From NCBI RefSeq assembly GCF_003023845.1, contig NZ_PYFT01000001.1:3906001-3970000 (forward strand): 64,000 bases of DNA. Direction: 5' to 3'. The notes below the pieces were generated by a model. The model searched no databases and was not told the origin of the DNA. It was given only the letters and a program-made list of their open reading frames with translations. The position numbers and the translations under genes were made by a program. This DNA comes from Adhaeribacter arboris (GTDB taxonomy: Bacteria; Bacteroidota; Bacteroidia; Cytophagales; Hymenobacteraceae). Numbering within the stretch: the first letter of the stretch is position 1; the number at the start of each line of letters is the position of its first letter. Of this stretch, positions 10,093 to 50,993 are shown piece after piece.

Positions 10093-11502
10093 ATGAACAA
10101 CACGCGCATTGAGCACGACTTTATTGGCGAAAAAGAAATTCCAGCCGAAGTTTATTATGGGGTACAAACCCTTCGCGCCCTCGAAAATTTTAATATTACC
10201 GGCCAGCGTATTTCGCAGGAACCGTTTTTTGTGCAGGCCTTGGCTTACGTAAAAAAAGGAGCCGCTCTGGCTAACCGCGACTTAGGCGTACTGGACCCGC
10301 AAATTGCCGAATTTATTAGTAAAGCCTGCGATCAACTGATTGCCGGTAAGTATTTAGATCAGTTTCCTTCGGATATGATTCAGGGCGGCGCCGGTACGTC
10401 TGTAAACATGAACGCCAACGAAGTTATCGCCAACGTGGCGTTGGAAATGATGGGACACGCCAAAGGCGAATACCAATATTGCCATCCCAATAACCACGTT
10501 AATTTTTCGCAATCTACCAACGATGCCTACCCAACGGCTTTCCGGATTGCCTTACTGAATAAACTAACGGCCTATACGCAATCTCTTACCGCTTTATCGG
10601 CGGCCTTTGAAGCCAAAGGCGTGGAATTTAAAAATGTGCTGAAGATGGGTCGCACGCAACTCCAGGACGCGGTTCCCATGTCGATGGGCGACGAGTTTAA
10701 AGGTTTTGCCAATACGCTCGCCGAAGAAGTAGGCCGCCTGGAAGATGCCAAGCAACTGATTGCCGAAATTAACATGGGCGCTACCGCCATTGGCACCGCG
10801 GTAAATGCGCCGGCCGGTTACCCCGAGCTGGTAACCAAATACTTAGCCGAAATAACCGGCCTGCCTCTGTATCTGGCTCCCGATTTAATTGAAGCTACTT
10901 CCGACACGGGCGCGTACGTACAACTTTCCGGGGTTTTAAAGCGCACGGCCGTAAAAATATCTAAAATCTGCAACGATTTACGCTTGCTTTCGTCGGGCCC
11001 GCGCACCGGTTTGTTCGAGATTAGTTTGCCGCAAATGCAGCCGGGTTCTTCTATTATGCCGGGCAAAGTAAATCCGGTCATTCCGGAGGTGGTAAATCAA
11101 ACCGCTTATTACGTTATTGGGGCGGACCTTACTATTACCTTAGCTGCCGAAGCGGGCCAGCTGCAATTAAACGTGATGGAGCCGGTAATTTCTTTCTCCT
11201 TGTTCACTTCTATTACTTACATGACGAACGCCTGCTATACGCTGCGCGAAAAGTGCGTATTGGGTATTGTCGCTAACAGCGCCCGCACCCAGGAAATGGT
11301 GATGCATAGCATCGGTATCGTTACTTTACTCAACCCCATTATTGGTTACGAAGCCGCTGCGGCTACCGCCAAAGAAGCCTTACAAACCGGTAAGTCTATC
11401 TACCAGATTGTGGTAAAAGAAAGGCAATTGGTTACTCAGGAAAAATGGGATGAGTTGTATTCTTTCGAGAATTTAATCCGGCCGAAATTTGTGCAGGGGT
11501 AA
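10093..11502 (+). CDS. aspA: Aspartate ammonia-lyase
   Basis: 469 residues, normal length for the family. It belongs to the fumarase/aspartase superfamily: GGAGTSVNMNANEVIAN near residue 97, STNDAYPTA near 141, TQLQDAVPMSMG near 187 and the flexible catalytic loop GSSIMPGKVNPVIPEVVNQ near 318, whose PEVVNQ ending favours aspartase over fumarase. It catalyses L-aspartate to fumarate plus ammonia in the cytoplasm. Monocistronic by position; a palindromic repeat lies one base after the stop and could form its terminator. Confidence 0.92.
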   Translation: MNNTRIEHDFIGEKEIPAEVYYGVQTLRALENFNITGQRISQEPFFVQALAYVKKGAALANRDLGVLDPQIAEFISKACDQLIAGKYLDQFPSDMIQGGAGTSVNMNANEVIANVALEMMGHAKGEYQYCHPNNHVNFSQSTNDAYPTAFRIALLNKLTAYTQSLTALSAAFEAKGVEFKNVLKMGRTQLQDAVPMSMGDEFKGFANTLAEEVGRLEDAKQLIAEINMGATAIGTAVNAPAGYPELVTKYLAEITGLPLYLAPDLIEATSDTGAYVQLSGVLKRTAVKISKICNDLRLLSSGPRTGLFEISLPQMQPGSSIMPGKVNPVIPEVVNQTAYYVIGADLTITLAAEAGQLQLNVMEPVISFSLFTSITYMTNACYTLREKCVLGIVANSARTQEMVMHSIGIVTLLNPIIGYEAAAATAKEALQTGKSIYQIVVKERQLVTQEKWDELYSFENLIRPKFVQG

Positions 11503-11503
11503 A

Positions 11504-11536
11504 AAACCCGGTAGGTTTTACAAATCTACCGGGTTT
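11504..11536. repeat. REP-like palindrome, copy 1 (after aspA)
   Basis: 33-base imperfect palindrome: left arm AAACCCGGTAGGTTTTA, right arm with CTACCGGGTTT. This is the most upstream of nine copies, with an altered centre. Directly follows the aspA stop, so it could end that transcript. Confidence 0.85.
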
Positions 11537-11616
11537 GGGGCAATTGAGTGCGTAGTTCTATTCTTTAAAAATACTTATATTCAAAGCTTGAGTAGATCTC
11601 ACCTTACTTCCCCAAG

Positions 11617-12405
11617 ATGCGCTTTAAATTAGAGTTACGCTTACCCGCTAAAAATAACCTACTTCCACTAAATTATCAATACGAACTCTCCGCCTGGATT
11701 TATAAAGTTCTTAATTTAGGCGATGCTTCTTTTAGTACCTGGCTGCATAACCAAGGTTATTTAACGAAGGGCAAGCCTTACAAACTATTTACTTTTTCCC
11801 GGCTGCAAGTATCCCAATTTAAAATTCAGCAAGACCGGCTGCAAATCTTAAGCGGTTCGGTTTCGTTGCTCCTTTCTTTTTATACGCCCGTTTCTGCCGA
11901 AACTTTTATTACCGGTTTATTTCGGCAGCAGCAATTTTCGTTGGGCGATGCCCAAAGCCGGGTGCCTTTTGAAGTAAGTACCATTCAGGCAGAATCTGGG
12001 CCGGAGTTCAACGGTAAGGCCCGGTTCCGGCTGCTTTCGCCGGCTTGCGTGAGTACGTCGCGGTTACAGAACGGTAGAAATATGCCCCTTTACCTCGCGC
12101 CGGATGAGGTTAACTTTGCCCCGATCTTTATTCAAAATTTACTACACAAAATAGAAGCCGGGCAGTTAGTCAACAGCGCTTCGGTAACTTTACCTGCCTT
12201 AGAGGAAGTACGTTTTACTTTATTAAGTAAGCCCGTTTCTAAGCTTGTTACCATTAAAGCGGGCACCCCGCAGCAAACCAAAGTACGCGGCTATTTATTT
12301 GATTTTGCCTTACAAGCGCCCCAAGAACTACTGGAAGCGGGTTATTACGCCGGATTTGGGGAGAAAAACAGTTTGGGATTTGGCTGCGCGGAGGTGCTAC
12401 CATAA
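11617..12405 (+). CDS. cas6: CRISPR endoribonuclease Cas6
   Basis: 262 residues. Two ferredoxin-like halves are suggested by MRFKLELRL at the N-terminus and the basic middle; the C-terminus AGYYAGFGEKNSLGFGCAEV is the glycine-rich G-x-G-x-x-x-x-x-G-x-G loop that marks Cas6. It cuts the pre-crRNA in the repeat, leaving the 8-base 5' handle (ATTGAAAT for this array). First gene of the type I-B locus on this strand; a palindromic repeat follows 16 bases after the stop. Confidence 0.93.
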   Translation: MRFKLELRLPAKNNLLPLNYQYELSAWIYKVLNLGDASFSTWLHNQGYLTKGKPYKLFTFSRLQVSQFKIQQDRLQILSGSVSLLLSFYTPVSAETFITGLFRQQQFSLGDAQSRVPFEVSTIQAESGPEFNGKARFRLLSPACVSTSRLQNGRNMPLYLAPDEVNFAPIFIQNLLHKIEAGQLVNSASVTLPALEEVRFTLLSKPVSKLVTIKAGTPQQTKVRGYLFDFALQAPQELLEAGYYAGFGEKNSLGFGCAEVLP

Positions 12406-12421
12406 ACCGGCGAAGATGAAA

Positions 12422-12454
12422 AAACCCGGTAGGTTTTGAAAACCTACCGGGTTT
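12422..12454. repeat. REP-like palindrome, copy 2 (after cas6)
   Basis: 33-base palindrome with arms AAACCCGGTAGGTTTT and AAAACCTACCGGGTTT around a single central G; arms pair perfectly over 16 bases. Sits between cas6 and the DUF433 gene. Confidence 0.93.
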
Positions 12455-12557
12455 GAGGGGGTTATTATATTAAATGTAAATGATATTTTTTATATTTTGT
12501 AATATACCTAAAGGATAATTATTCCTAGTCTCAGGTAAATTTTAGCTAAAATGCCGA

Positions 12558-12773
12558 ATGGATTTTTCAAAAATAATTACGCTTGAACCAGGTAAAAGAA
12601 GCGGTAAGCCCTGTATTAGAGGAATACGCATTACCGTTTACGATGTTTTAAGTTACTTAGCCTCCGGTATGACCACCGAAGAAATCTTAGAAGATTTTCC
12701 GGACTTGAAGAAAGAAGATGTTTTGGCTTGTCTGTCCTATGTAGCTCAAGCCGGCCAGCAAGAAATTAACTAA
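12558..12773 (+). CDS. DUF433 antitoxin-like protein
   Basis: 71 residues. GKRSGKPCIRGIRITVYDVLSYLASG and the helical TTEEILEDFPDLKKEDVLACLSYVA are the core of DUF433, a small HTH-like domain found as the antitoxin of VapC45-type (DUF5615, PIN-fold) toxin pairs. No DUF5615 gene follows; instead the downstream 500 bases hold only decayed fragments on the other strand. It interrupts the cas operon between cas6 and cas8b and is bracketed by two palindromic repeats, so it looks like cargo rather than a Cas component. Confidence 0.88.
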   Translation: MDFSKIITLEPGKRSGKPCIRGIRITVYDVLSYLASGMTTEEILEDFPDLKKEDVLACLSYVAQAGQQEIN

Positions 12774-12777
12774 AGAA

Positions 12778-12954
12778 TTAGTCTTTATCATCCACTGTAT
12801 TCTTTTTCTTGCCATTCTCTTCTCGTATCTGTTTTATCATTTCCTCACGCGGAAGTGGTTCCGAAATGGCTAAAAGCTCTTTCCAAACTTCATCAGCATT
12901 ACGGCCTTCAAAGGGGTGAATCAAATTCTGCTTACTGGTAAATTGGATGTATAG
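12778..12954 (-). pseudogene. Remnant of a small gene, paralogue 1
   Basis: An uninterrupted minus-strand frame of 58 codons without a start codon reads ...NLIHPFEGRNADEVWKELL, then SEPLPREEMIKQIREENGK and ends VDDKD before TAA at 12778-12780. It aligns with the fragment at 12984-13166 over the core HPF-x(6)-EVW-x-EL-x(3)-S-x-PL-x-R-x-E, so protein-level similarity shows that it was once coding. Frame is blocked upstream by TAA at 12955-12957. Family not recognised. Confidence 0.5.
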
Positions 12955-12983
12955 TTATAGTAGTCAAATTTTAATATTTTGCT

Positions 12984-13166
12984 TTAGTGGCCTCTATCTT
13001 TATGAGCAAGCGCCCGCAGCTTTTTTAAGGCTTCCTTGCGCCTTAAAGGTTTAGAATATGTATCTAATTCCTGCCAAACTTCTTCTTTGTTTTTGTTTTT
13101 AAAGGGATTATTTAGTGGACTGTTCCTTATTAGTTTCCAATATAGGCGGGTCGCATTGCCAACATT
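12984..13166 (-). pseudogene. Remnant of a small gene, paralogue 2
   Basis: A minus-strand frame of 60 codons without ATG reads NATRLYWKLIRN, then PLNNPFKNKNKEEVWQEL, then SKPLRRKEALKKLRALAHKDRGH and stops at 12984-12986. It is paralogous to the fragment at 12778-12954 (shared NPF/HPF, EVW-x-EL, S-x-PL-x-R). The lack of a start codon in both copies suggests decay after duplication, though use of a rare start cannot be excluded. Family not recognised. Confidence 0.48.
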
Positions 13167-13236
13167 TTAAATTTACTTCTTTTTGCAAAATACCCAAAAT
13201 TAGGTATTGTTAACGAATTGTTTTTTACTCATCTTC

Positions 13237-13269
13237 AAACCCGGTAGGTTTTCAAAACCTACCGGGTTT
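13237..13269. repeat. REP-like palindrome, copy 3 (before cas8b)
   Basis: 33-base palindrome with perfect 16-base arms around a central C. It ends 21 bases before the chosen start of cas8b. Together with copy 2 it brackets the DUF433 segment. Confidence 0.93.
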
Positions 13270-13290
13270 ATACGCTTACGCAACTTTTAC

Positions 13291-15120
13291 ATGATAAGAG
13301 AACTAACTAATTTAGTCCATGATTTAGACGACATGAAAAATCATGGACTTAAACCACGGGAAGGACTACATATTTTAGTCGGATTAAATGAGAGCGGAAA
13401 TTTAGAGATTAAACGTGTCGAGACGTTTAAAAAGAAAGATGACCCTGGTTTGGAGTTTTGGCAAATGTGTGCGGTACGCGACCAGAATGCGTGGTGTATT
13501 AATACCGATAAATGTTTGGATTTGCCAGCTAAGGGCATTCAATCGGCCTCTCCTTATTGTTTCGGCCTAAAGAAGGATTCTTTAAAAGGAGGCGAGAAAT
13601 ACCAGAAAGATAAAGTTAAAGTATATGACCGCCTTAATCAATATTTTGATAATGCTATAAAATTCCTGCAAGAGGAGAAAGAAAAGAAGTTAGCTGTTGC
13701 TTTCAAAGATTTTTGCAGGCGTTACTTGTCTGCGGAAATTGAAACAACGGAACACTTTGTCAGTCTAAAAGACAATGACTATATCATTTTTTACCTGGAT
13801 ATACCTTTAGAGATATACCAGAAGCCGCACCAGCAATATTTAAAAAAACGGCTATTTAATACAGAGCAGTATAATGTGCCGGGCTTAAACGAAGAAATAT
13901 TGGGTACTAGTAATTTTTTTAACGGTTATAATTCAAAAAAACTGTTTCTAATGCACCAAACGGCTCCTTTTGAAATTAATGGGCGTATATCGGGTTCAGA
14001 AGCTCAGGCCTTATTTCAGTTTGAGAAATTAATTGAACGCGGAGTTTTACCTAACCCGGTACCTATATTTATTCACAAAGAAGAACTTAACCTGAATTTT
14101 GGAACTGTTAAGCTTTTTCACGATCAGGATAAAAAAATCGGTTACCGCGAAATTATTCAAAGCATAAAACCCACCGACCGGCAAAATTATTACTTGTTGT
14201 TTGTGACGAGAGGCGAAATCAAAGACTTTGATTTTGTAAGCAGCTTTGAATACAATTTAAAAGATGCCAAAACCGGTGACCCCTTCTGGACTATTTACAA
14301 TTTATTTCACCTGAAGGAAAAAAATAGTAAAGAAGATAAACGCTATCCGGATATAAAAAACATATTTCAGTTTCAAAGCGAAGTAGTACAATATATTTTT
14401 AATCGGGCTTTAGTCCGAGAAGATGAGGGGAAATTAGTGATTAAATATTTTGATGAGATTGATGCCAAATATTATTCTGCCGCCACATACTTATTAGTTA
14501 TGAAATACCGTCAGGCTTTTTACAACTATATTTATAAGTCTAGGCGTGAAGTTATTTCGGGATTAATATTCAAGGATATCATGCTGACCGGTATCCGTGA
14601 TGACGTAAAGCAGAACAAAGAATTCGGAGCTAAAGAAAAACTAAATATTTACTTCAGCCTCAATCACCATTTTGATAATACCAATTCAAACTTCAATGGG
14701 AATTATATGCCAGATAAATTAGACGAACTGTTTCAGAAAACCATGGAAATTGCCGATAGTAAAGAACGCGTGGCTTTAAGCGACGAGACCGAATTTGCTT
14801 ATATCTCCGGGCAGATGATAAATTTTTTGCTTGACCAAAGTGAATCGGCGAATCCTACGCATGCTTTGCTGGAGCCATTTCTACAAAAAACCAGCCGCGA
14901 GCTGTTCGTGGATGAAATTGTAAAAGTTTTTAATCGCTACAAACATAACATTGACCGGAAAGGAACAGGCAGGGTGAGCCGCTTACTACGGGAAATCTTA
15001 GGCTTTGACCGCCCGGTTGATATAAAGAAATATATGTCTTTTATTCTGGCGGGCTATTTCAGCCCATCATTCCGCTTTACTAAATCTGTAGAAAAACAAC
15101 CTGACACCATAGAAAAATAA
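13291..15120 (+). CDS. cas8b: Type I-B Cascade large subunit Cas8b (Csh1/TM1802-like)
   Basis: 609 residues from ATG 13291. The reading frame is open further upstream to 13207, but that extension runs through a palindromic repeat (translating FKPGRFSKPTGF), so I reject it as start. Identification rests on place (between cas6 and cas7), size, and Csh1-like features: N-terminal LVHDLDDMKNHGLKPREGLHILVGLN, a WCINTDKCLDLPAKG segment with Cys residues, SPYCFGLKKD, and a helical C-terminus. Cas8b is the large subunit that recognises the PAM and recruits Cas3. The cas7 gene begins five bases after its stop. Sequence is divergent, so subfamily is less certain than role. Confidence 0.85.
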   Translation: MIRELTNLVHDLDDMKNHGLKPREGLHILVGLNESGNLEIKRVETFKKKDDPGLEFWQMCAVRDQNAWCINTDKCLDLPAKGIQSASPYCFGLKKDSLKGGEKYQKDKVKVYDRLNQYFDNAIKFLQEEKEKKLAVAFKDFCRRYLSAEIETTEHFVSLKDNDYIIFYLDIPLEIYQKPHQQYLKKRLFNTEQYNVPGLNEEILGTSNFFNGYNSKKLFLMHQTAPFEINGRISGSEAQALFQFEKLIERGVLPNPVPIFIHKEELNLNFGTVKLFHDQDKKIGYREIIQSIKPTDRQNYYLLFVTRGEIKDFDFVSSFEYNLKDAKTGDPFWTIYNLFHLKEKNSKEDKRYPDIKNIFQFQSEVVQYIFNRALVREDEGKLVIKYFDEIDAKYYSAATYLLVMKYRQAFYNYIYKSRREVISGLIFKDIMLTGIRDDVKQNKEFGAKEKLNIYFSLNHHFDNTNSNFNGNYMPDKLDELFQKTMEIADSKERVALSDETEFAYISGQMINFLLDQSESANPTHALLEPFLQKTSRELFVDEIVKVFNRYKHNIDRKGTGRVSRLLREILGFDRPVDIKKYMSFILAGYFSPSFRFTKSVEKQPDTIEK

Positions 15121-15125
15121 CCTTC

Positions 15126-16061
15126 ATGAGTAACTCCTATACCCGCCGCGCTTATGGCTGCACCATCATCAAAAGTATTAATTCTAATTTTAATGCTGAT
15201 TTCTCCCATCAGCCCCGCACGTTACCTGATGGAGTTGTTTATGCTACGGACAAAGCCTTAAAATACACGGTGAAAAATTACCTGAAAAACAATTATTCTG
15301 GTGATAAGATATTTTACTTTAAAACTTTTAATGACAATATGAATCCGCGCACGTTGGATGAAACATATGAAAGCTTGTTAGAAAAGTACCCGGAAACAAA
15401 AGGCAAAGAAAAGGATAATACTTTAAGGTTAACGGTATTAGGTAATCTCTTAAAATGCTTAGACATTCGTTTGTTCGGCGCAACCTTTGCGGGTAAAACT
15501 AATATTTCCATTCACGGTCCTTTGCAAATAACTCATGGCATTAATCGATTTCCTAAGAATGATATATATTCCGAACAAATCATGTCGCCGTTCCGGAACC
15601 CCGGCGAAGAAGGTAAAGATGAAAAAGGTGCGGCTACTTTAGGTTCACAATCTAAACTAAGGGAAGGACATTATGTTTTTCATTTTTCGGTAAACCCGCA
15701 GAATATTGCCGAACACGTGAAAAGGCTTAACGGCAGCGGAACGGAACTCAGCACCGATGATATTGCCAAAGCTAAAGAAGCTCTACGGCGTGGCGCTACT
15801 TATTATGATTCGGCTTCTAAAGCCGGCTCGGAGAACGAGTTGCTGCTTTGGGTAGAATTAAAAGAAAAATCCAAAGCAGTGCTGCCCTCTTTTATAGATT
15901 TAGTAACTGTTGGCGAAGATGGCACCATAGATTTAAGCGGTGTAACTACCTTATTAAACTCCGAACATATTCAGGACGAAGTGGAAACCGTAGAACTTTA
16001 TTTTAATCCAGGCACAAAGCTTACTGGTCTTCCGCAAAACGCCAATACAGCTAATTTATAA
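15126..16061 (+). CDS. cas7: Cascade backbone protein Cas7 (Csh2-type)
   Basis: 311 residues. RRAYGCTIIKSINSNFNADF at the N-terminus and CLDIRLFGATFAG followed by SIHGPLQITHGINRF near residues 118-145 are the diagnostic Cas7/Csh2 blocks; LREGHYVFHFSVNP supports it. Multiple Cas7 copies coat the crRNA spacer. It follows cas8b by five bases. A palindromic repeat lies 12 bases after the stop and could stabilise the upstream cas8b-cas7 transcript so that Cas7 is made in excess (inference). Confidence 0.93.
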   Translation: MSNSYTRRAYGCTIIKSINSNFNADFSHQPRTLPDGVVYATDKALKYTVKNYLKNNYSGDKIFYFKTFNDNMNPRTLDETYESLLEKYPETKGKEKDNTLRLTVLGNLLKCLDIRLFGATFAGKTNISIHGPLQITHGINRFPKNDIYSEQIMSPFRNPGEEGKDEKGAATLGSQSKLREGHYVFHFSVNPQNIAEHVKRLNGSGTELSTDDIAKAKEALRRGATYYDSASKAGSENELLLWVELKEKSKAVLPSFIDLVTVGEDGTIDLSGVTTLLNSEHIQDEVETVELYFNPGTKLTGLPQNANTANL

Positions 16062-16073
16062 GTTTATCTTCCC

Positions 16074-16106
16074 AAACCCGGTAGGTTTTAAAAACCTACC
16101 GGGTTT
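16074..16106. repeat. REP-like palindrome, copy 4 (between cas7 and cas5)
   Basis: 33-base palindrome with perfect 16-base arms around a central A, located between the cas7 stop (16061) and the cas5 start (16136). Confidence 0.93.
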
Positions 16107-16135
16107 TACCTCTTCGCTAACCTACCATCAAGCTT

Positions 16136-16912
16136 ATGCAAACAGTTCTATCTTTCGATTTGGAAAGTAATTTTGGTTTTTTTAAGAAGCCGGATATTAA
16201 CGATAACAAGCGGGCGCCTTACTTAACCTACAACATATTGCATAAACCCGCCCTGTTGGGAATATTAGGCGCTATTATCGGGCTGAAAGGTTTTGAGCGG
16301 CGCGGCGAATTACCGGAATACTATCAGCAGTTAAAGCACCTACAAACTGGAATCCAGCCTCTTAACCACCAACAAGGTAATTTTACCAAAACCCTGGTAA
16401 AGTATAATAATAGCGTAGGCTATGCAAGCCAAGAAGAAGGAGGCAATCTAATTGTAACCGAAACCATGCTTATCCGGCCAGCGTACCGGTGTTACGTTGC
16501 CCTTAATACCGCCCACGAGCCGGAGGCAAAGCTGCACAAATATTTACTAAACCAACAAGCAGAGTTTATTCCCTATTTAGGCAAAAACGAATTTACGGCT
16601 TGGTGGCAAAACGTGCAGGAATATCCTTACCAACCTTTTAACGCCCAAGCAAATTTCAAGTTACTGAACCTGTTCCAAAAACCGGTTTTGGATTCGGCAG
16701 TCAGCAAAATCATCATTCAGGCTTCGGGGCGAAATTACAGCGAAACCAGGGATTTATTTCTTTATTTCGAGCGACTGCCTAGTGCCTACGATGAAATTTT
16801 GTTGCAGTACACATTATCAGATTATGTATTTACTAACGCATTATTTCCGAAAGAAACTTCTTTTCCTGGTTTATTTGCGCTATCCGCTACAGAAGCTGTT
16901 CAACTTAATTAA
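16136..16912 (+). CDS. cas5: Cascade subunit Cas5 (type I-B)
   Basis: 258 residues. MQTVLSFDLESNFGFFKKPDINDNKR gives the N-terminal RAMP strand, PALLGILGAIIGLKG the following helix/glycine loop, and ETMLIRPAYRCYVAL and PYLGKNEFTAWW are typical of Cas5b/Csh5. Cas5 caps the 5' handle of the crRNA and contacts Cas8b. It is nine bases upstream of cas3. Confidence 0.92.
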   Translation: MQTVLSFDLESNFGFFKKPDINDNKRAPYLTYNILHKPALLGILGAIIGLKGFERRGELPEYYQQLKHLQTGIQPLNHQQGNFTKTLVKYNNSVGYASQEEGGNLIVTETMLIRPAYRCYVALNTAHEPEAKLHKYLLNQQAEFIPYLGKNEFTAWWQNVQEYPYQPFNAQANFKLLNLFQKPVLDSAVSKIIIQASGRNYSETRDLFLYFERLPSAYDEILLQYTLSDYVFTNALFPKETSFPGLFALSATEAVQLN

Positions 16913-16920
16913 ATCTTATA

Positions 16921-19749
16921 ATGAAAAGTTTCCGAGAGATAGCCACTGCTATTTCGCCGCTATCCCAGGTTTTAGATAAAGCGCCTTATTATTATGCGCA
17001 CTTACCAAAACAAGATGAAAACCGGGCCCCGGAGACCTTAGAACAGCATCTGCAATGTGTATTGCACTATTTTCTAGAATTATGCGAACAGCACCAGTTA
17101 GATGAAGTAGTTAATAATCTGATTCATGATTTGATTCCGGTGCATCTTATTCAAAGCGCCGAAGTTGAAAATTACCTCAAAACTGTTTTTCTGGATGTTA
17201 TCTGGTTTCATGATTTTGGCAAAGTCAATCATTTTTTCCAACAAGAAAAAATGAAGAACTCCTATCCTAACTTCCTGAAAGTAAAGCACACACTAGGTTC
17301 TGACCATGCCCGAATTGGTGCTTACTTGTTTTTAATGTATCATTTCAAACAATCGAGCCGGTTTGAGTTAGAAGTAACTAATTTCCTGGACGCTTTTCTA
17401 ATAGCAAGCTCTTACAGCATTATTAAACATCATGCTGCCACGTTAAGTAACTTGCCCGATTATGACTTTTTTTCTTCTAAACATAAAGTTCTCTCGCAAT
17501 ATCTTATCCTTCTTGATTGGCAAATTACAGCAGATGACTTAGCCTGTTTTCATAATTTGTTAAGCGTGGATAAGCAGGACGTTTTTATGAGATATTATAA
17601 TGAGACTGCTAATCAGACTGCATCATCGTTTCCGTTATTTGCTTTATTAAAATTGAATTTCTCGTTGCTTACGGCTGCCGATTACTACGCAACGGCGCAT
17701 TATATGAATGATTGGCAACAGCCTTTTAATGGCTTTGGCATAGTAAAGCAAGAACTCCGGGAACGTATTATTTATAATGCCGGCACATTACAGCCATACA
17801 ACCAAAACACTTACCGCCGTTTAGAGGAGCTACTGCAAAAAGATGAGCAAACTTTGATTGAACCCACTCCGAATAACCTGAACGAACTCCGGGCCAAAAT
17901 GGCTGCCGAAGTAATTACTACTATCCGGAGCCAAGCGCAGAATAACCTGTTTTATTTAGAAGCGCCTACGGGGGGCGGTAAAACGAACATGTCTATGCTG
18001 GCAGTAGCGGAACTGCTGAAAGCTAACCCAACGTTAAACAAAATATTTTATGTTTTCCCGTTTACTACGCTTATTACCCAAACGTACACAGCCATTGCCG
18101 AAACATTGGGTTTGCAGCCCGACGAATTAACTCAATTACATAGCAAAGCCGGCTGGCAAACTAAAAACACCGCCGAAGATGCTGATGCCGAATACGGGAA
18201 AGACAGGAAAAACTTCATCGATAATCTGTTTGTCAATTACCCAATTACCTTACTATCGCACGTACTCTTTTTTGATGTTATCAAAACCAATAAAAAAGAA
18301 CGCAACTATTTGTTGCACCGGCTGGCTAATGCTGTTGTAGTAATTGACGAATTGCAATCGTATAATCCGGAGCATTGGGATAAATTAGCTTATTTTACTC
18401 AGCAGTATGCCCACGCTTTTAATATAAAGTTTATTTTAATGTCCGCTACGTTGCCCAAATTAGGCGACTTGCAATCTGTGATACCTCAAAAGATAACGTT
18501 TACTCCATTGGTGCAAGATGCCATTCCACGTTTCTTCAAAAACCCCAACTTCGGCAAGCGGGTAAGTTTTAATTTTGATTTGCTGGAAAACCCCGATTTT
18601 AAAACGCCGGAACTTAAAGACAAAGATGGCAGGGAGGCTTATTTAAATTGTTTGTATACTTTCTTAATTGAAAAAACAAAAGAAAGGAAAGCCGCATTTA
18701 CAGACTATCCCGTGCGTACCGTTATTGAGTTTATTTTTAAGAAAACCGCTTCAGAATTTTATAAAATTGCTTCTCAAGAGTTAGGCAAACAGTATGAACA
18801 TATTCTGGTGCTTTCGGGCACTATCCTGGAGCCTCGCCGCAAGCAAATTATCAACTTCTTAAAAAGTAAAAACACAGAAAGTGTTCTTTTAATTACAACT
18901 CAAGTAGTTGAAGCCGGCGTAGATATTGATATGGATTTAGGCTTTAAAGATACCTCGCTATTAGACAGTGAAGAACAGTTAGCCGGGCGCATTAACCGCA
19001 ACGTCACCAAAGAAGATTGCCAGCTTTTTCTGTTTAATCTCGACGATGCTAAAGTGATTTACGGGAAAGACAAACGTTATCAACAGCAAAAACAGGAAAG
19101 TTTCCAGCCACATTTCAAACGCATCTTAGCCGATAAGGCATTTGACGAACTATATAAAAAAGTATACGCCATTATAGATAAAAACAATAGCCAGGAATAC
19201 ATAAAAAATTTTAGAGATTATAAAAGCTATTTGCAGCAACTAAACTTTCCCGAAGCTGATAAAAAATTTAGATTAATCGAAGAAGACAGCATCTCTGTGT
19301 TCGTACCAATACCAGTACCGATAGCAGTAGCAGGAAAGGAGCTGGAAAAACCAGATAAAATATTTACTAATGATGAGCTCAATTTTTTAAAAAGTAAAGA
19401 TATACTTCCGAAAAAGCATTTATTCGGAGAAGAGTATTTAGATTCTATTGATGGTGTTGAAGTTTTTCAGCTTTATCGTGATTTGATAAATGAGCGCAAA
19501 CCCAAAAGCAAAGAGCGGGATTTTATTACCGAAAAGCTAATGGGAAAACGCATGCAAGGCATTATGTCGAAGTATATTTTTTCTATGCTAAATTATAGCA
19601 AAGATTATAAAGATTTACAAACTTATGGTTTGCGGAACAAAGACAAAGACGGAAATGAGTACGGCTACTTTTATTTGGAGAACACAGATGTCTATGACTA
19701 CTTAAGTGGCATAAAAGATGAGGTTGTGATAAATTCTAATTTTATTTAA
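16921..19749 (+). CDS. cas3: CRISPR helicase-nuclease Cas3
   Basis: 942 residues, a single-chain HD plus helicase form. HD nuclease residues: His in EQHLQCV near 44, FHDFGK near 97, His in SDHARIG near 124 and KHHAAT near 163. Helicase: Walker A APTGGGKTN near 348, DELQ box (VVVIDELQSYNPEHWDK) near 475, motif III MSATLP near 508, motif V VVEAGVDIDMD and motif VI QLAGRINRN near 684. All catalytic positions look intact. It nicks and degrades target DNA after Cascade binding. It closes the interference module; a duplicated palindrome pair and a transposase gene follow before cas4. Confidence 0.96.
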   Translation: MKSFREIATAISPLSQVLDKAPYYYAHLPKQDENRAPETLEQHLQCVLHYFLELCEQHQLDEVVNNLIHDLIPVHLIQSAEVENYLKTVFLDVIWFHDFGKVNHFFQQEKMKNSYPNFLKVKHTLGSDHARIGAYLFLMYHFKQSSRFELEVTNFLDAFLIASSYSIIKHHAATLSNLPDYDFFSSKHKVLSQYLILLDWQITADDLACFHNLLSVDKQDVFMRYYNETANQTASSFPLFALLKLNFSLLTAADYYATAHYMNDWQQPFNGFGIVKQELRERIIYNAGTLQPYNQNTYRRLEELLQKDEQTLIEPTPNNLNELRAKMAAEVITTIRSQAQNNLFYLEAPTGGGKTNMSMLAVAELLKANPTLNKIFYVFPFTTLITQTYTAIAETLGLQPDELTQLHSKAGWQTKNTAEDADAEYGKDRKNFIDNLFVNYPITLLSHVLFFDVIKTNKKERNYLLHRLANAVVVIDELQSYNPEHWDKLAYFTQQYAHAFNIKFILMSATLPKLGDLQSVIPQKITFTPLVQDAIPRFFKNPNFGKRVSFNFDLLENPDFKTPELKDKDGREAYLNCLYTFLIEKTKERKAAFTDYPVRTVIEFIFKKTASEFYKIASQELGKQYEHILVLSGTILEPRRKQIINFLKSKNTESVLLITTQVVEAGVDIDMDLGFKDTSLLDSEEQLAGRINRNVTKEDCQLFLFNLDDAKVIYGKDKRYQQQKQESFQPHFKRILADKAFDELYKKVYAIIDKNNSQEYIKNFRDYKSYLQQLNFPEADKKFRLIEEDSISVFVPIPVPIAVAGKELEKPDKIFTNDELNFLKSKDILPKKHLFGEEYLDSIDGVEVFQLYRDLINERKPKSKERDFITEKLMGKRMQGIMSKYIFSMLNYSKDYKDLQTYGLRNKDKDGNEYGYFYLENTDVYDYLSGIKDEVVINSNFI

Positions 19750-19761
19750 TTAGCCACTGCC

Positions 19762-19794
19762 AAACCCGGTAGGTTTTAAAAACCTACCGGGTTT
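19762..19794. repeat. REP-like palindrome, copy 5 (after cas3)
   Basis: 33-base palindrome with perfect 16-base arms around a central A, 12 bases after the cas3 stop. The preceding ten bases AGCCACTGCC (19752-19761) are repeated before copy 6. Confidence 0.93.
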
Positions 19795-19916
19795 TAAGCG
19801 TATTACCCATCCAGTTGCTTTCGAATGGATAATAAATGCATCTAAATTGTTCTAAAGTAGTATTGAAATCACCTTGCATATAAGTTTTTGCAATCAACGG
19901 GAGCAAAGCCACTGCC
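19795..19916 (-). other. Possible coding remnant between REP copies 5 and 6
   Basis: The 122 bases between the two palindromes are open on the minus strand and read protein-like text (LPLIAKTYMQGDFNTTLEQF, then YYPFESNWMGN). The frame runs through the palindrome upstream and has no clean start, so it may be a gene fragment or chance. The protein is not recognised. Confidence 0.25.
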
Positions 19917-19949
19917 AAACCCGGTAGGTCTTGAAAACCTACCGGGTTT
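19917..19949. repeat. REP-like palindrome, copy 6 (before the transposase gene)
   Basis: 33-base palindrome with one T-to-C change in the left arm (AAACCCGGTAGGTCTT). Preceded by AGCCACTGCC (19907-19916), identical to the bases before copy 5, so copies 5 and 6 with flank form a 43-base direct repeat 155 bases apart. Confidence 0.92.
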
Positions 19950-19973
19950 ACTTCGAACCAAAGCATTAAACTA

Positions 19974-20579
19974 ATGGCGAACAAGCGCATTCCATTTGAG
20001 CCGGATAAAATGTACCACGTGTACAACCAGGGGAACGGGGGCGAATCTATCTTTAGGAGTGACGAAAATTATTATTATTTTCTAAAAAAATACGCGCAGT
20101 ACATTTACCCAATAGCCGAAACGTTTGCTTACTGTCTGATGCCAAATCATTTTCACCTGCTTATCCGAATCAGATCGGCAGAAGAACTTTTGAAGCTGGT
20201 TAAAAACCCGGTGGGTTTTGAAAACCTACCGGGTTTTATTTCCCGCCAATTTAGCCACTTTTTTAATGCGTATGCGAAAGCTTTTAACGCGCAGTACCAT
20301 CGAAAAGGCAGCTTATTCCGGGGCGATGTAAACCGAAAATTAGTTTCTCAGGAAAGTTATTATACCAAGTTAATTGCCTATATTCATCTTAACCCGGTAC
20401 GGCATGGTTTCGTGGAACAACCCGCGGACTGGTCACATACTTCTTACCATAGTTTTTTGGTCTCCAAACCAACTTTACTCCAACGGCAAGAGGTTCTGGA
20501 TTGGTTTGGCGGCCAGGAGGTTTACTTAAGCTTTCATCAAAAACCACCGGATAGTAGTATCGCTCATTTAAACCTATAA
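19974..20579 (+). CDS. REP-associated tyrosine transposase (Y1/RAYT, TnpA_REP family)
   Basis: 201 residues. The HUH motif is PNHFHLLI (His59, His61), and the helix with the nucleophilic tyrosine is in SYYTKLIAYIHLNPVRHG (Tyr129/130/137 are candidates), as in IS200-like and RAYT single-strand transposases; RKGSLFRGD and WSHTSYHSF are further family blocks. No flanking IS ends were seen, so it fits the domesticated RAYT class that acts on REP hairpins. Residues 77-88 (KNPVGFENLPGF) are the translation of a REP palindrome lying inside the gene in frame. It is inserted between cas3 and cas4 on the cas strand; cas4 starts eight bases after its stop. Confidence 0.93.
   Translation: MANKRIPFEPDKMYHVYNQGNGGESIFRSDENYYYFLKKYAQYIYPIAETFAYCLMPNHFHLLIRIRSAEELLKLVKNPVGFENLPGFISRQFSHFFNAYAKAFNAQYHRKGSLFRGDVNRKLVSQESYYTKLIAYIHLNPVRHGFVEQPADWSHTSYHSFLVSKPTLLQRQEVLDWFGGQEVYLSFHQKPPDSSIAHLNL
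20204..20236. repeat. REP-like palindrome, copy 7, inside the transposase coding sequence
   Basis: 33-base palindrome (left arm AAACCCGGTGGGTTTT with one change, centre G, right arm canonical). It keeps the frame because 33 is divisible by three and adds a short loop between the HUH motif and the tyrosine helix. Confidence 0.95.
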
Positions 20580-20587
20580 CTCATTCA

Positions 20588-21091
20588 ATGCCTATTACTG
20601 CTACCCACGTAAACTTGTACCACGTTTGCCATCGGGAACTCTGGTTGCACGCCAATGAAGTAAGGATGGAACATACTTCTGACACGGTAAGCGAGGGCAA
20701 ACTCATCCACGAAACCGCTTATCCGCAACGGGCCGAACGTTACCGCGAAATAGTGCTGGACGGTGTAAAAATTGATTTTTACGATCCTAAGGCCAAAGTA
20801 GTACATGAGATTAAAAAGTCGAATAAGGCCGAAGCCGCGCACTTGGCTCAAATAAAGTATTATCTCTACATTCTGGAGCAAAATGGGATAGAAGGAGCTA
20901 CCGGTATCCTGGAATATCCCACGCTCCGAATAACTGAAACGGTAACGCTTACTCCCACCGACCGCTCCGAAATGGTAAAATGGTTAACTAATATAACCGT
21001 TATCTTAAATTCGCTGACTTGTCCCCCGCTTTTGCACGCGCCTATCTGCAAACGCTGCAGTTATTATGATTTTTGTTATGTAGGAGAATAA
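20588..21091 (+). CDS. cas4: CRISPR adaptation exonuclease Cas4
   Basis: 167 residues. Four cysteines for an Fe-S cluster: one in YHVCHRELW near residue 14 and three in ICKRCSYYDFC at the C-terminus. The RecB-type nuclease core is VKIDFYD...VVHEIKKSNK (Asp, then E-x-K) near residues 57-78, followed by the AAHLAQIKYYLYIL QxxxY motif. Cas4 trims prespacers and selects PAM in I-B systems. It begins the adaptation module and starts eight bases after the transposase gene; a degenerate palindrome follows. Confidence 0.95.
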   Translation: MPITATHVNLYHVCHRELWLHANEVRMEHTSDTVSEGKLIHETAYPQRAERYREIVLDGVKIDFYDPKAKVVHEIKKSNKAEAAHLAQIKYYLYILEQNGIEGATGILEYPTLRITETVTLTPTDRSEMVKWLTNITVILNSLTCPPLLHAPICKRCSYYDFCYVGE

Positions 21092-21106
21092 TGAAAGAAA
21101 CGTACG

Positions 21107-21139
21107 AAATCCGGTAAGTTTTAAAAACCTACCGGGTTT
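21107..21139. repeat. REP-like palindrome, copy 8 (between cas4 and cas1)
   Basis: 33-base copy with two changes in the left arm (AAATCCGGTAAGTTTT) and a canonical right arm, located between cas4 and cas1. It ends 14 bases before the cas1 ATG. Confidence 0.88.
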
Positions 21140-21153
21140 AATTAACCTCACTT

Positions 21154-22161
21154 ATGAAGAAAAGCTACTACTTGTTTAATCCCGTCCGCCTGAGCCGCAA
21201 AGATAATACTTTGCAATTTACCCCCTTCGACGAACAAGGCAACGAGGCAGGCCCTTGCCGGTACATTCCCGTCGAAACGGTGTCGGATTTATACGTATTT
21301 GGCAGCTTGGATGCGAATAGCGCCTTGTATAACTTTTTAGGAAAACACGGCATTTCGGCGCATTTTTTTGATTATTACGAGCATTATACCGGCTCTTTCT
21401 TTGCCAAAGAATATTTACTGGCCGGCAAAATGCAGGTGGCCCAAACCCGGCATTATACCCTCCGGAACAAGCGCGTAGCATTAGCCCAAAAGTTTATAGA
21501 AGGCGCCGCTTTTAATATTTTAAAAAACCTGCGTTACTACCATAACCGCGAGAAAGATCTGGCCGCCAGCATCAGCCAAATCGAAAAATACGCCACCCAA
21601 ATTTCAGCTACTACCGAAGTTCCCGAGCTCATGGGCCTGGAAGGAAATATCCGGCAAACGTATTACGCGGCCTTTGATACGATTGTGGCTGGCTTTACGA
21701 TGGAAAACCGCAGCAAACGCCCGCCGAAAAACGAGTTAAACGTGCTGATTTCGTTCGGCAACATGATGTGCTACGCCGCTTGTCTGGATATGATTTACCA
21801 CACGCAGCTAAATCCTACGATTAGTTTTTTGCACGAACCGGGTACCCGGCGCTTCTCGCTGGCCTTGGATTTAGCCGAAATTTTTAAACCTATCTTGGTT
21901 GACCGGACTATTTTCCGGGTGCTGAACAAGCGGGAAGTGCAGCCGTCGGATTTTGCCACCGACTTGAACGGTTGCGTTCTAAAAGAAAGCGGCAAGAAAA
22001 CCTTCGTAAAAGCTTTTGAAGAACGCCTAAAAGAAACGGTAAAACACCGCACCTTAAACAAATCGGTGAGCTACAAACACTTAATTAAATTAGAGTGCTA
22101 TAAACTCAGCAAACACGTAATGGGCATAGAAGAGTACAAACCTTTTAAAATCTGGTGGTAA
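21154..22161 (+). CDS. cas1: CRISPR integrase Cas1
   Basis: 335 residues. Metal-binding residues are visible: Glu in LEGNIRQTYYAAF near 163, His in SFLHEPGTRRFSLALDLAEIFKP near 227 and the acidic residues of DLAE near 239-242. The N-terminal beta domain (KSYYLFNPVRLSRKDNTLQF, DLYVFGSLDAN) is of the I-B type. Cas1 with Cas2 inserts new spacers at the leader end. The 176 bases to cas2 contain an inverted-repeat segment instead of the usual tight join. Confidence 0.97.
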   Translation: MKKSYYLFNPVRLSRKDNTLQFTPFDEQGNEAGPCRYIPVETVSDLYVFGSLDANSALYNFLGKHGISAHFFDYYEHYTGSFFAKEYLLAGKMQVAQTRHYTLRNKRVALAQKFIEGAAFNILKNLRYYHNREKDLAASISQIEKYATQISATTEVPELMGLEGNIRQTYYAAFDTIVAGFTMENRSKRPPKNELNVLISFGNMMCYAACLDMIYHTQLNPTISFLHEPGTRRFSLALDLAEIFKPILVDRTIFRVLNKREVQPSDFATDLNGCVLKESGKKTFVKAFEERLKETVKHRTLNKSVSYKHLIKLECYKLSKHVMGIEEYKPFKIWW

Positions 22162-22336: not shown

Positions 22337-22600
22337 ATGTACGTAATATTGGTGTACGATATAGGGGAAATGCGGGTAGCTCGCATGCTCAAACTTTGCC
22401 GCAAGTACCTGAACTGGATTCAGAATTCGGTATTTGAAGGCGAAATTACCGAAGTAAAACTGAAGGAGTTCATGGGCAAAGCTCATACCATTATGGACCT
22501 GGATAACGACAGTATTATTTTGTTTAAAAGCCGGGAGCAACGTTGGCTCGATAAGCAGATTATTGGGGTAGAACGCGGCCCAGTTACTAACTTCTTATGA
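22337..22600 (+). CDS. cas2: CRISPR adaptation protein Cas2
   Basis: 87 residues, normal length. MYVILVYDIGEMRVARMLKLCRKYLNWIQNSVFEGE gives the ferredoxin-fold first strand with the conserved Asp (residue 8) and the R-x-x-K-x-x-x-x-Y-L-x-W-x-Q-x-S-V-F-E-G signature. It is the structural partner of Cas1. The CRISPR leader begins directly after its stop. Confidence 0.97.
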   Translation: MYVILVYDIGEMRVARMLKLCRKYLNWIQNSVFEGEITEVKLKEFMGKAHTIMDLDNDSIILFKSREQRWLDKQIIGVERGPVTNFL

Positions 22601-22816: not shown

Positions 22817-24492
22817 CTTTTAATCGCACTATGATAGAATTGAAATTTATTTTGGTGGTTTATTGTGTCTTTCACTCGCCGACTTTTAATCGCACTATGA
22901 TAGAATTGAAATTTTACGATCCGGGTCTTTTTGCCTATCCCCAGGAACTTTTAATCGCACTATGATAGAATTGAAATAATATGAGGGAAATAACAATTAG
23001 AGCTTTAGCGATTCTTTTAATCGCACTATGATAGAATTGAAATACGTGGAAAACATGCTTTACCCAAAGCCTTCGCAGCTTTTAATCGCACTATGATAGA
23101 ATTGAAATCAAGCTTTTTCTATTTCTTGTTCCGTGGCATCATCCTTTTAATCGCACTATGATAGAATTGAAATTACATGTGCAAATCTCCTTGCAGCATA
23201 AAGGCTTTTCTTTTAATCGCACTATGATAGAATTGAAATTTTTCAAAGTGGCTATTATCCGTACTTAGTAATAAAACTTTTAATCGCACTATGATAGAAT
23301 TGAAATAAAAGTCCATTGATGGAACCGCCAGCCGATACAGCTCTTTTAATCGCACTATGATAGAATTGAAATATATGGTTACCCGAAGGTAGATAATTGA
23401 AATCTACAGCTTTTAATCGCACTATGATAGAATTGAAATATATTCTTAATAAATCTATTGTTCAGTCCCGCATACTTTTAATCGCACTATGATAGAATTG
23501 AAATGGAAATACTTGCTATTATGGCTAACTATCCGGAAGCTTTTAATCGCACTATGATAGAATTGAAATGGAAATACTTGCTATTATGGCTAACTATCCG
23601 GAAGCTTTTAATCGCACTATGATAGAATTGAAATTTGTTAAAGGAACAAACATACTTTGACTACTTACTACTTTTAATCGCACTATGATAGAATTGAAAT
23701 AGCACTTATTAGACCACGACACTAGTAAAGCCATTGCTTTTAATCGCACTATGATAGAATTGAAATTATCCATGCGGCCGTGCTTTTCAACCTTAGGCTT
23801 CTCTTTTAATCGCACTATGATAGAATTGAAATTGTACTACGGGGGGCAATTGAAGGTACTTTTTCTTACTTTTAATCGCACTATGATAGAATTGAAATAG
23901 TTTGGTTACCGCTCTTTATCCTTCCACGAACAGAAGCTTTTAATCGCACTATGATAGAATTGAAATTTAAATAACTTTACGCGGCCTGCCCCAGGCTTTT
24001 TTCTTTTAATCGCACTATGATAGAATTGAAATATTACCCGGAGCGCGGCCATTTCTATTACCCGGTCCTTTTAATCGCACTATGATAGAATTGAAATTTC
24101 GAGTAAAAGCCTTCTATTTTGCGGGTTAGGCTACTTTTAATCGCACTATGATAGAATTGAAATAAACATAACCGGTAGAATGCCTAGCGGCTAGTTCTTC
24201 TTTTAATCGCACTATGATAGAATTGAAATATAAATAAAAGGTATTGATTTTTGGTGCTCATTGGCTTTTAATCGCACTATGATAGAATTGAAATGCCCTT
24301 GAATGTGGCCTCCAGCTTGCAGAATATTACCTTTTAATCGCACTATGATAGAATTGAAATAACACATTAAGTAATCGAATAGTTTTTGCATCGGAACTTT
24401 TAATCGCACTATGATAGAATTGAAATTCTTCCCATACAATCCGGATTTCGTAGTCCTCTACACTTTTAATCGCACTATGATAGAATGGAAGG
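22817..24492 (+). CRISPR. Type I-B CRISPR array, 26 repeats and 25 spacers
   Basis: The 30-base repeat begins CTTTTAATCGC and ends GATAGAATTGAAAT; 25 copies are identical and the last (24463-24492) has a changed 3' end (ATGGAAGG), which marks the leader-distal end. Spacers are 35-38 bases (mostly 35-36). The 3' ATTGAAAT fits the 8-base crRNA handle of I-B systems read on the plus strand. Spacers 11 (23505-23539) and 12 (23570-23604) are identical, a tandem unit duplication. The chance peptide FNSIIVRLK that appears in reverse reading is only the repeat. Confidence 0.99.
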
Positions 24493-50960: not shown

Positions 50961-50993
50961 AAACCCGGTAGGTTTTAAAAACCTACCGGGTTT
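50961..50993. repeat. REP-like palindrome, copy 9 (between nuoB and nuoC)
   Basis: 33-base palindrome with perfect 16-base arms around a central A, the same family as the copies in the cas locus; the only copy found outside that locus in the window. It is preceded by GGTTGAATGGTTAGATGGTTAA-like word repeats. Confidence 0.93.

Follow-up and report, generated by a model that had tools for sequence, protein, structure and literature searches.

REPtrons, in which a REP-associated tyrosine transposase gene (RAYT, or TnpAREP) is accompanied by repetitive extragenic palindromes (REPs), were reportedly studied by Nunvar (2010) and Bertels (2011). A REP is also carried by the malE-malF intercistronic region. 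According to excerpts of PMC2817692, classical REPs reach high copy numbers, usually above 100. With regard to operons, differential decay is described as favouring certain products of malEFG (excerpts of PMC5927463), and stem-loops as having such an effect in SRPS operons (excerpts of PMC8219983). In the available portions of Quentin 2018 (PMC6006769), RAYT subclass 2.4 is characterized by REPs inserted in tnpAREP, a trait called unique to 2.4, with a REP insertion also being mentioned for some members of another small group, and its REPs bear a GT[AG]G foot. The same portions assign to subclass 2.6, from Bacteroidetes, atypical structures lacking GT[AG]G and the motifs NH[LIV]H, WQ and YIH[QN]NP together with a serine motif. 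Here we analyse a stretch of 64,000 nt from Adhaeribacter arboris (contig NZ_PYFT01000001.1, positions 3,906,001 to 3,970,000), referred to below as the window, in which a RAYT gene and a dense group of 33-bp palindromes occur at a type I-B CRISPR-Cas operon of the order cas6, cas8b, cas7, cas5, cas3, RAYT, cas4, cas1, cas2 and CRISPR array. Taken as a whole, these features are best explained, and we think rather probably, by the entry of a REPtron, a local spread of its REPs and a possible role of the hairpin predicted between cas7 and cas5. A REP/RAYT pair is here connected with the spacing of a CRISPR-Cas operon and possibly with its output.

A RAYT gene and clustered palindromes in a type I-B cas operon

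Eight palindromes of the form AAACCCGGTAGGTTTT-N-AAAACCTACCGGGTTT, with two 16-base arms around one central base, were identified within 9.6 kb of the window (11504-21139), each at the site given in a preliminary description of the same DNA, which had also reported correctly that the rest of the window holds one further full copy (Table 1). Perfect arms were found in copies 2 to 5. Five copies start 1-16 nt past a stop codon (of aspA, cas6, cas7, cas3 and cas4), and the other three lie ahead of cas8b, ahead of the RAYT gene and within the RAYT gene, the last being the single intragenic copy previously noted. The copy at 13237 is intergenic if Cas8b starts at the ATG at 13285, where the alignment of a homologue begins, and would fall within the open reading frame (ORF) only with a start at the TTG at 13207. 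In a search of Rfam with E up to 1, two matches turned up, each far under the gathering score and of no use.

Half-sites with up to 3 mismatches were found 19 times in the window, versus a mean of 1.59 in 100 shuffles. Across the genome (7.25 Mb, two contigs) we detected 14 full copies when no more than 3 mismatches were allowed (strict) and 28 with a degenerate pattern admitting sibling cores (loose), as well as 20 exact half-sites and 21 with one mismatch. Among the 14 strict copies, one is clearly intragenic and two (13237 and L014) depend on the gene call; none has a GT[AG]G foot directly beside it on either strand, as judged by eye. The 9.6-kb stretch holds 8 of the 14 strict and 8 of the 28 loose copies, corresponding to 0.83 per kb, compared with 0.00085 (strict) or 0.00285 (loose) per kb over the remainder of the main contig. 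An ordinary genome-wide REP background, which the window merely happens to show, would fit the scatter of sibling palindromes with CGGCGGG and CGGCAGG cores, the location of 20 of the 28 loose copies outside the 9.6 kb, and the situation in another genome with a related RAYT (G013), where 38 copies are spread over many contigs and three lie in or beside the RAYT gene. However, density in the stretch exceeds that of the rest 292-fold by the loose and 973-fold by the strict count, and when 28 copies were placed at random along the 7.04-Mb main contig in 100,000 trials, no 9.6-kb window received more than 4. The background reading was ruled out on this density, and we hold it to be highly improbable; the earlier judgement that the density exceeds chance is borne out, the whole-genome copy count showing no similar density genome-wide.

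The ORF between cas3 and cas4 is, on its predicted fold and motifs, a RAYT/TnpAREP gene. In a sequence search of the PDB at E <= 1, the only match for its product was TnpAREP 4er8, and an AlphaFold2 model (predicted local distance difference test, pLDDT, 87.9) had 4er8_A as its top Foldseek match (E 2.9e-8; template modelling score, TM, 0.66 by target and 0.55 by query), the remaining six fold matches at E up to 0.001 being IS200/IS605-type transposases. The NCBIfam RAYT model NF047646 scored 56.7 bits, under its cutoff of 80, and there was no Pfam match at 0.001. The protein possesses an HuH motif, PNHFH, at residues 57-61 and a Y1 motif, YIHLNP, at 136-141 (class 2 Y...NP), in which H59, H61 and N140 are invariant across 15 aligned rows. 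In its own genome the gene is the sole match at E <= 0.001. Sibling palindromes with the core CGGCGGG are nevertheless scattered throughout this genome. A phage origin of the RAYT was also considered and rejected, no match being found in a phage collection.

Comparable arrangements were found among 44 RAYT loci, comprising our own, 29 further loci from a first set, of which second matches of some genomes and weaker matches were not taken, and 14 of the 15 loci of a second set (L059 was removed as a duplicate of L030, from Raineya). A 33-bp palindrome with 14 or more of 16 pairs lies no more than 350 nt from the gene at 22 of these loci, while shuffled sequence yields such palindromes at about 0.55 per Mb (1 in 1.8 Mb). 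The flanking palindromes frequently occur one per side, and most loci have a sequence of their own. Seven of the 44 genes also contain an in-frame palindrome, which in every case falls in the linker from the HuH motif to the next long helix; in the window protein it corresponds to residues 77-88, mostly a loop between helices 69-73 and 85-107. These in-gene palindromes are read in two frames, four of them in frame 2 and three in frame 1. Six loci combine an in-gene with a flanking copy. At five of them the in-gene copy is closer to the best of its own flanks, with 31-33 of 33 positions in common, than to those of other loci, and at the sixth, L043, it ties at 29 between its own flank and another locus's; the inner copy thus tends to change in step with those outside the gene. 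On a RAYT tree built without the linker columns, the in-gene trait requires five changes, at least four of them on well supported branches. At one of the related loci (L046, genome G108), eight REP palindromes lie around the RAYT gene at about 1183-2373, several with a period of 77-78 nt, so that tandem repeats flank the gene on either side.

Most likely, the palindromes of the window are REPs cognate to the RAYT found among them. The label "REP-like" used in the preliminary description is consequently retained in a more specific sense, as REPs that probably belong to a RAYT in the same operon.

Table 1. Coordinates of the palindromes and genes at the cas operon of the window
Feature	Coordinates	Strand	Remarks
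aspA	10093..11502	+	lyase family; name from the preliminary description
REP copy 1	11504..11536	.	1 nt past aspA stop; 14/16 pairs
cas6	11617..12405	+	
REP copy 2	12422..12454	.	16 nt past cas6 stop; perfect
DUF433 small gene	12558..12773	+	in cas6-cas8b insert
REP copy 3	13237..13269	.	15 nt ahead of cas8b ATG (13285); perfect
cas8b-like large subunit	13285..15120	+	name based on position and on homologues at other cas loci
cas7	15126..16061	+	
REP copy 4, cas7-cas5 gap	16074..16106	+	12 nt past cas7 stop; perfect; RNA hairpin -22.8 kcal/mol
cas5b	16136..16912	+	
cas3	16921..19749	+	
REP copy 5	19762..19794	.	12 nt past cas3 stop; perfect
REP copy 6	19917..19949	.	putative upstream REP of the REPtron; 24 nt ahead of RAYT start; 15/16 pairs
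RAYT / TnpAREP gene	19974..20579	+	201 aa
REP copy 7, within RAYT gene	20204..20236	+	in frame (KNPVGFENLPGF); 15/16 pairs
cas4	20588..21091	+	
REP copy 8, cas4-cas1	21107..21139	.	15 nt past cas4 stop; 14/16 pairs
cas1	21154..22161	+	type I-B model
cas2	22337..22600	+	
CRISPR array	22817..24492	.	26 repeat copies, final copy degenerate
Outlying REP copy	50961..50993	.	perfect; 30 kb downstream

Probable arrival and local spread of the palindromes

Fifteen orthologous cas loci from other genomes of the order were compared with the window, 14 of them with a similar core order and one (L079) showing cas8b, cas7 and cas5 only. None of the 15 gave a RAYT match of at least 41 aa on either strand, and none contained an exact half-site of the window palindrome, which suggests that a REPtron was probably inserted between cas3 and cas4 and that its REPs then spread locally. 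The cas6-cas8b and cas3-cas4 gaps measure 879 nt and 838 nt in the window, versus 2 nt and 0 nt in G104. Four of the orthologous loci (L109, L114, L116 and L117) hold 33-bp palindromes of other sequence. At L114 (G176) these palindromes, at 1551, 1688, 2036 and 10028, have AGAAATAACATTTCT-like arms and belong to another family, which brackets a second I-B cas locus, with copies ahead of cas6 and past the cas4 match. This 17-kb locus gave no match to the RAYT.

Copies 5 and 6 are immediately preceded by a common 10 nt, AGCCACTGCC (19752-19761 and 19907-19916), and among the flanks of the 14 strict copies no other pair shows common sequence. Segmental duplication was rejected on these grounds, as differing flanks indicate that the copies were not carried along in duplicated segments. 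It has also to be considered whether REP pairs bound mobile cargo, such that the operon was built up from cassettes with a palindrome at each end, one being the DUF433 insert between copies 2 and 3 and another the RAYT unit. The long cas6-cas8b gap, with a REP at each end and DUF433 between, where G104 has 2 nt, and the upstream flank common to copies 5 and 6 are in keeping with such cassettes. Yet in six other operons the cas6-cas8b stretch is 713-1054 nt long, with differing open frames and without 33-bp palindromes, and we regard movement as cassettes as decidedly unlikely. The DUF433 gene is bracketed by copies 2 and 3, and several orthologous operons have other open frames at cas6-cas8b. 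Opposite the RAYT start, an 80-codon minus-strand open frame (19787-20026) runs through copy 6; neither this frame nor a second small one on the minus strand (12781-12924) gave a match in a Pfam search.

We infer a local spread by the RAYT acting near its own gene. A RAYT gene and its cognate 33-bp REPs, together a REPtron, would have entered the operon between cas3 and cas4, and the REPs would then have spread nearby, in most cases coming to lie 1-16 nt past a stop codon of the same stretch. As suggested by what is known of the HuH/Y1 family, the RAYT probably recognises the folded single-stranded palindrome, cuts and rejoins it, and prefers nearby DNA. The in-gene copy stays in frame and shares the sequence of its own flanking REPs, and most copies are probably by-products of RAYT activity.

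Several observations weigh against this account. No Cas8b match was found in the same-genus genomes G001-G007, and no close relative offered an empty site, so that the insertion is deduced from orthologues at about 37-45% Cas8b identity. Three genomes of the same genus or family (G003, G004 and G014) carry a few copies or near variants although no match to this RAYT was detected in them, and in G013, with its related RAYT, only three of the 38 copies lie in or beside that gene. Moreover, 21 of the 44 RAYT loci have no such palindrome in the gene or within 350 nt of it, at least one of the palindromes among the 22 (that of L036) looks unlike the family, and the in-gene trait shows only weak clustering on the tree, since 23 of 500 shuffles of the labels require no more changes. 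The locus offers a compact site for studying whether REPs move locally, a process that hundreds of dispersed copies make difficult to follow in other genomes.

In a broad reading of the preliminary description, the palindromes would form a selected regulatory series, each of them tuning the gene upstream of it. The sites are consistent with such a series, with five of eight copies starting just past a stop codon, as are the RNA stems of -13.6 to -22.8 kcal/mol obtained for four copies folded alone and the hairpins at the cas7-cas5 junction of other operons. On the other hand, strong hairpins are seldom found at other junctions of orthologous operons (2 of 16 controls, see below), the window palindrome is absent from all 15 orthologous loci, one copy is intragenic, and sites behind stop codons are typical of REPs generally, according to excerpts of PMC3733652. 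A selected series is consequently improbable in our view. The palindromes do punctuate the locus; since they appear to be cognate REPs of an in-operon RAYT, this punctuation is better explained by local spread than by design, and seven of the eight copies are best read as insertions without demonstrated function.

The cas7-cas5 junction and the remainder of the locus

The eighth, copy 4, is the only one for which comparison of operon sequences supports a regulatory role. We compared 36 Bacteroidota I-B operons (35 and G238), from which G253, whose contig ends inside cas7, and G266 and G024, with partial Cas8b matches, had been excluded for the gap test. A cas7-cas5 gap of 52-109 nt was found in nine of these operons, and in eight of the nine, our own included, the gap folds better than all 500 of its shuffles. 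As controls we used junctions of 40-260 nt in the other operons, leaving out shorter gaps, the cas6-cas8b junction, which often holds other open frames, and cas5-cas3. A strong hairpin was detected in 2 of 16 controls (L109 cas1-cas2 and L117 cas3-cas4); for one further control, L117 cas4-cas1, the gene start that was assumed lacks a start codon. Without our own operon, 7 of 8 cas7-cas5 gaps thus compare with 2 of 16 controls (Fisher p 0.0007). The sole open cas5-cas3 gap (G104, 55 nt) forms a weaker hairpin (z -2.8, 1 of 100 shuffles). The L109 (G299) cas1-cas2 hairpin is itself very strong (-36.4 kcal/mol, 0 of 300 shuffles as stable).

The cas7-cas5 hairpin sequences look unrelated to one another, apart from G197 and G238, which are from one family and partly alike. 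In these two operons and our own the hairpin is a 33-bp 16+1+16 palindrome (in G238 as judged by eye). Each complex requires Cas7 in several copies. That hairpins recur at this place is taken to support a stoichiometry role similar to that of malE-malF, at this junction alone. Copy 4 would provide a stable RNA hairpin directly past the cas7 stop, its likeliest role being that of a barrier to 3' decay, and such a barrier would raise Cas7 (and Cas8b) over Cas5 and Cas3 in the manner of the malE-malF REP.

Intrinsic terminators or attenuators between the cas genes might be thought an alternative, given the strong, G+C-containing stems. However, a terminator scan called one copy only, on the minus strand (12454-12422), and the cas7-cas5 hairpins of other operons are not followed by a clear U-run, as judged by eye. 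With no coding-strand call at any palindrome this alternative was ruled out, and we give it hardly any probability.

The role suggested for the cas7-cas5 hairpin has itself to be set against a number of findings. The cas7-cas5 gap is no more than 21 nt in 27 of the 36 operons, and among five annotated plasmid-borne I-B operons from other phyla it is 18, 1, 3, 0 and 4 nt; a sixth such record carried no annotation. The gap of G167 lacks a strong hairpin, 26 of 500 shuffles being as stable, and was kept in the test though contrary to the hairpin reading. Gene boundaries were taken from tblastn, and four starts were corrected afterwards; these concern four of the 27 operons, in which a wrong TTG gave way to an ATG in the same frame, at most 11 nt from where cas7 stops. 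The sample is also small, and the comparison was posed after one example, the G104 hairpin, had been seen. The preliminary idea that the cas7-cas5 hairpin stabilises the upstream mRNA, thereby raising Cas7 and Cas8b relative to later subunits, is accordingly supported by comparison where a gap exists, through the excess over control junctions, and does not extend to the operons without a real gap, which include all five from other phyla. A decay barrier favouring Cas7 and Cas8b is, in our estimation, quite possible though short of probable. More doubtful is the broader proposal that the cas7-cas5 junction of Bacteroidota I-B operons constitutes a dosage control point repeatedly fitted with unrelated RNA hairpins, which here might set the excess of Cas7 through co-option of a REP of the selfish RAYT. 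The recurrent hairpin makes the setting of Cas7 excess in type I operons directly testable.

Among the remaining features, the cas8b-like large subunit gave no Pfam or NCBIfam match. Within the CRISPR array, two adjacent spacers (23468-23597) are near-identical, and the 65-nt units of repeat and spacer at 23468 and at 23533 agree to 95%, suggesting that one unit was probably duplicated. Considering the 24 spacers between 25 repeats that fit an exact pattern, none has a 16-mer in common with the window outside the array or contains the palindrome core.

Comparison with known systems

The present locus resembles the RAYT/TnpAREP REPtrons described in the available portions of Quentin 2018 (PMC6006769) in that an HuH/Y1 gene is flanked by its own family of palindromes, each RAYT having its own sequence with sibling copies elsewhere in the genome. 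It differs from the REPtrons of the same source in its perfect 33-bp palindrome without a GT[AG]G foot, its low copy number, the concentration of copies around the RAYT, and a host locus that is a cas operon. With subclass 2.4 the window RAYT has in common a REP inserted between HuH and Y; unlike subclass 2.4, it has no WQ motif and its REPs have no GT[AG]G foot. The absence of the foot is instead a likeness to subclass 2.6; the Y motif here reads YIHLNP. In the motif row the window protein has NHFH, F in place of the expected W, YIHLNP and TSYHS, and its relatives are mixed for the subclass 2.6 motifs. The present genes combine the in-gene REP of 2.4 with the missing foot of 2.6, and their motif row fully fits neither subclass. 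As in classical REPs, a short palindrome occurs in multiple, mostly extragenic copies (14 strict); in contrast to them, there is no GT[AG]G foot and the copies number 14 (strict) or 28 (loose).

In the portions of the open-access literature available, no report was found of a REP cluster in a cas operon or of a cas7-cas5 hairpin, and the available excerpts of PMC5927463 and PMC8219983 mention neither CRISPR nor cas7. The arrangement of copy 4 has its counterpart in the malE-malF region and the SRPS operons, where a stem-loop likewise separates two genes whose products belong to the same complex and follows the one required in excess. As at malE-malF, the stem predicted here from sequence would be stable, lies between subunit genes and has no terminator U-run.

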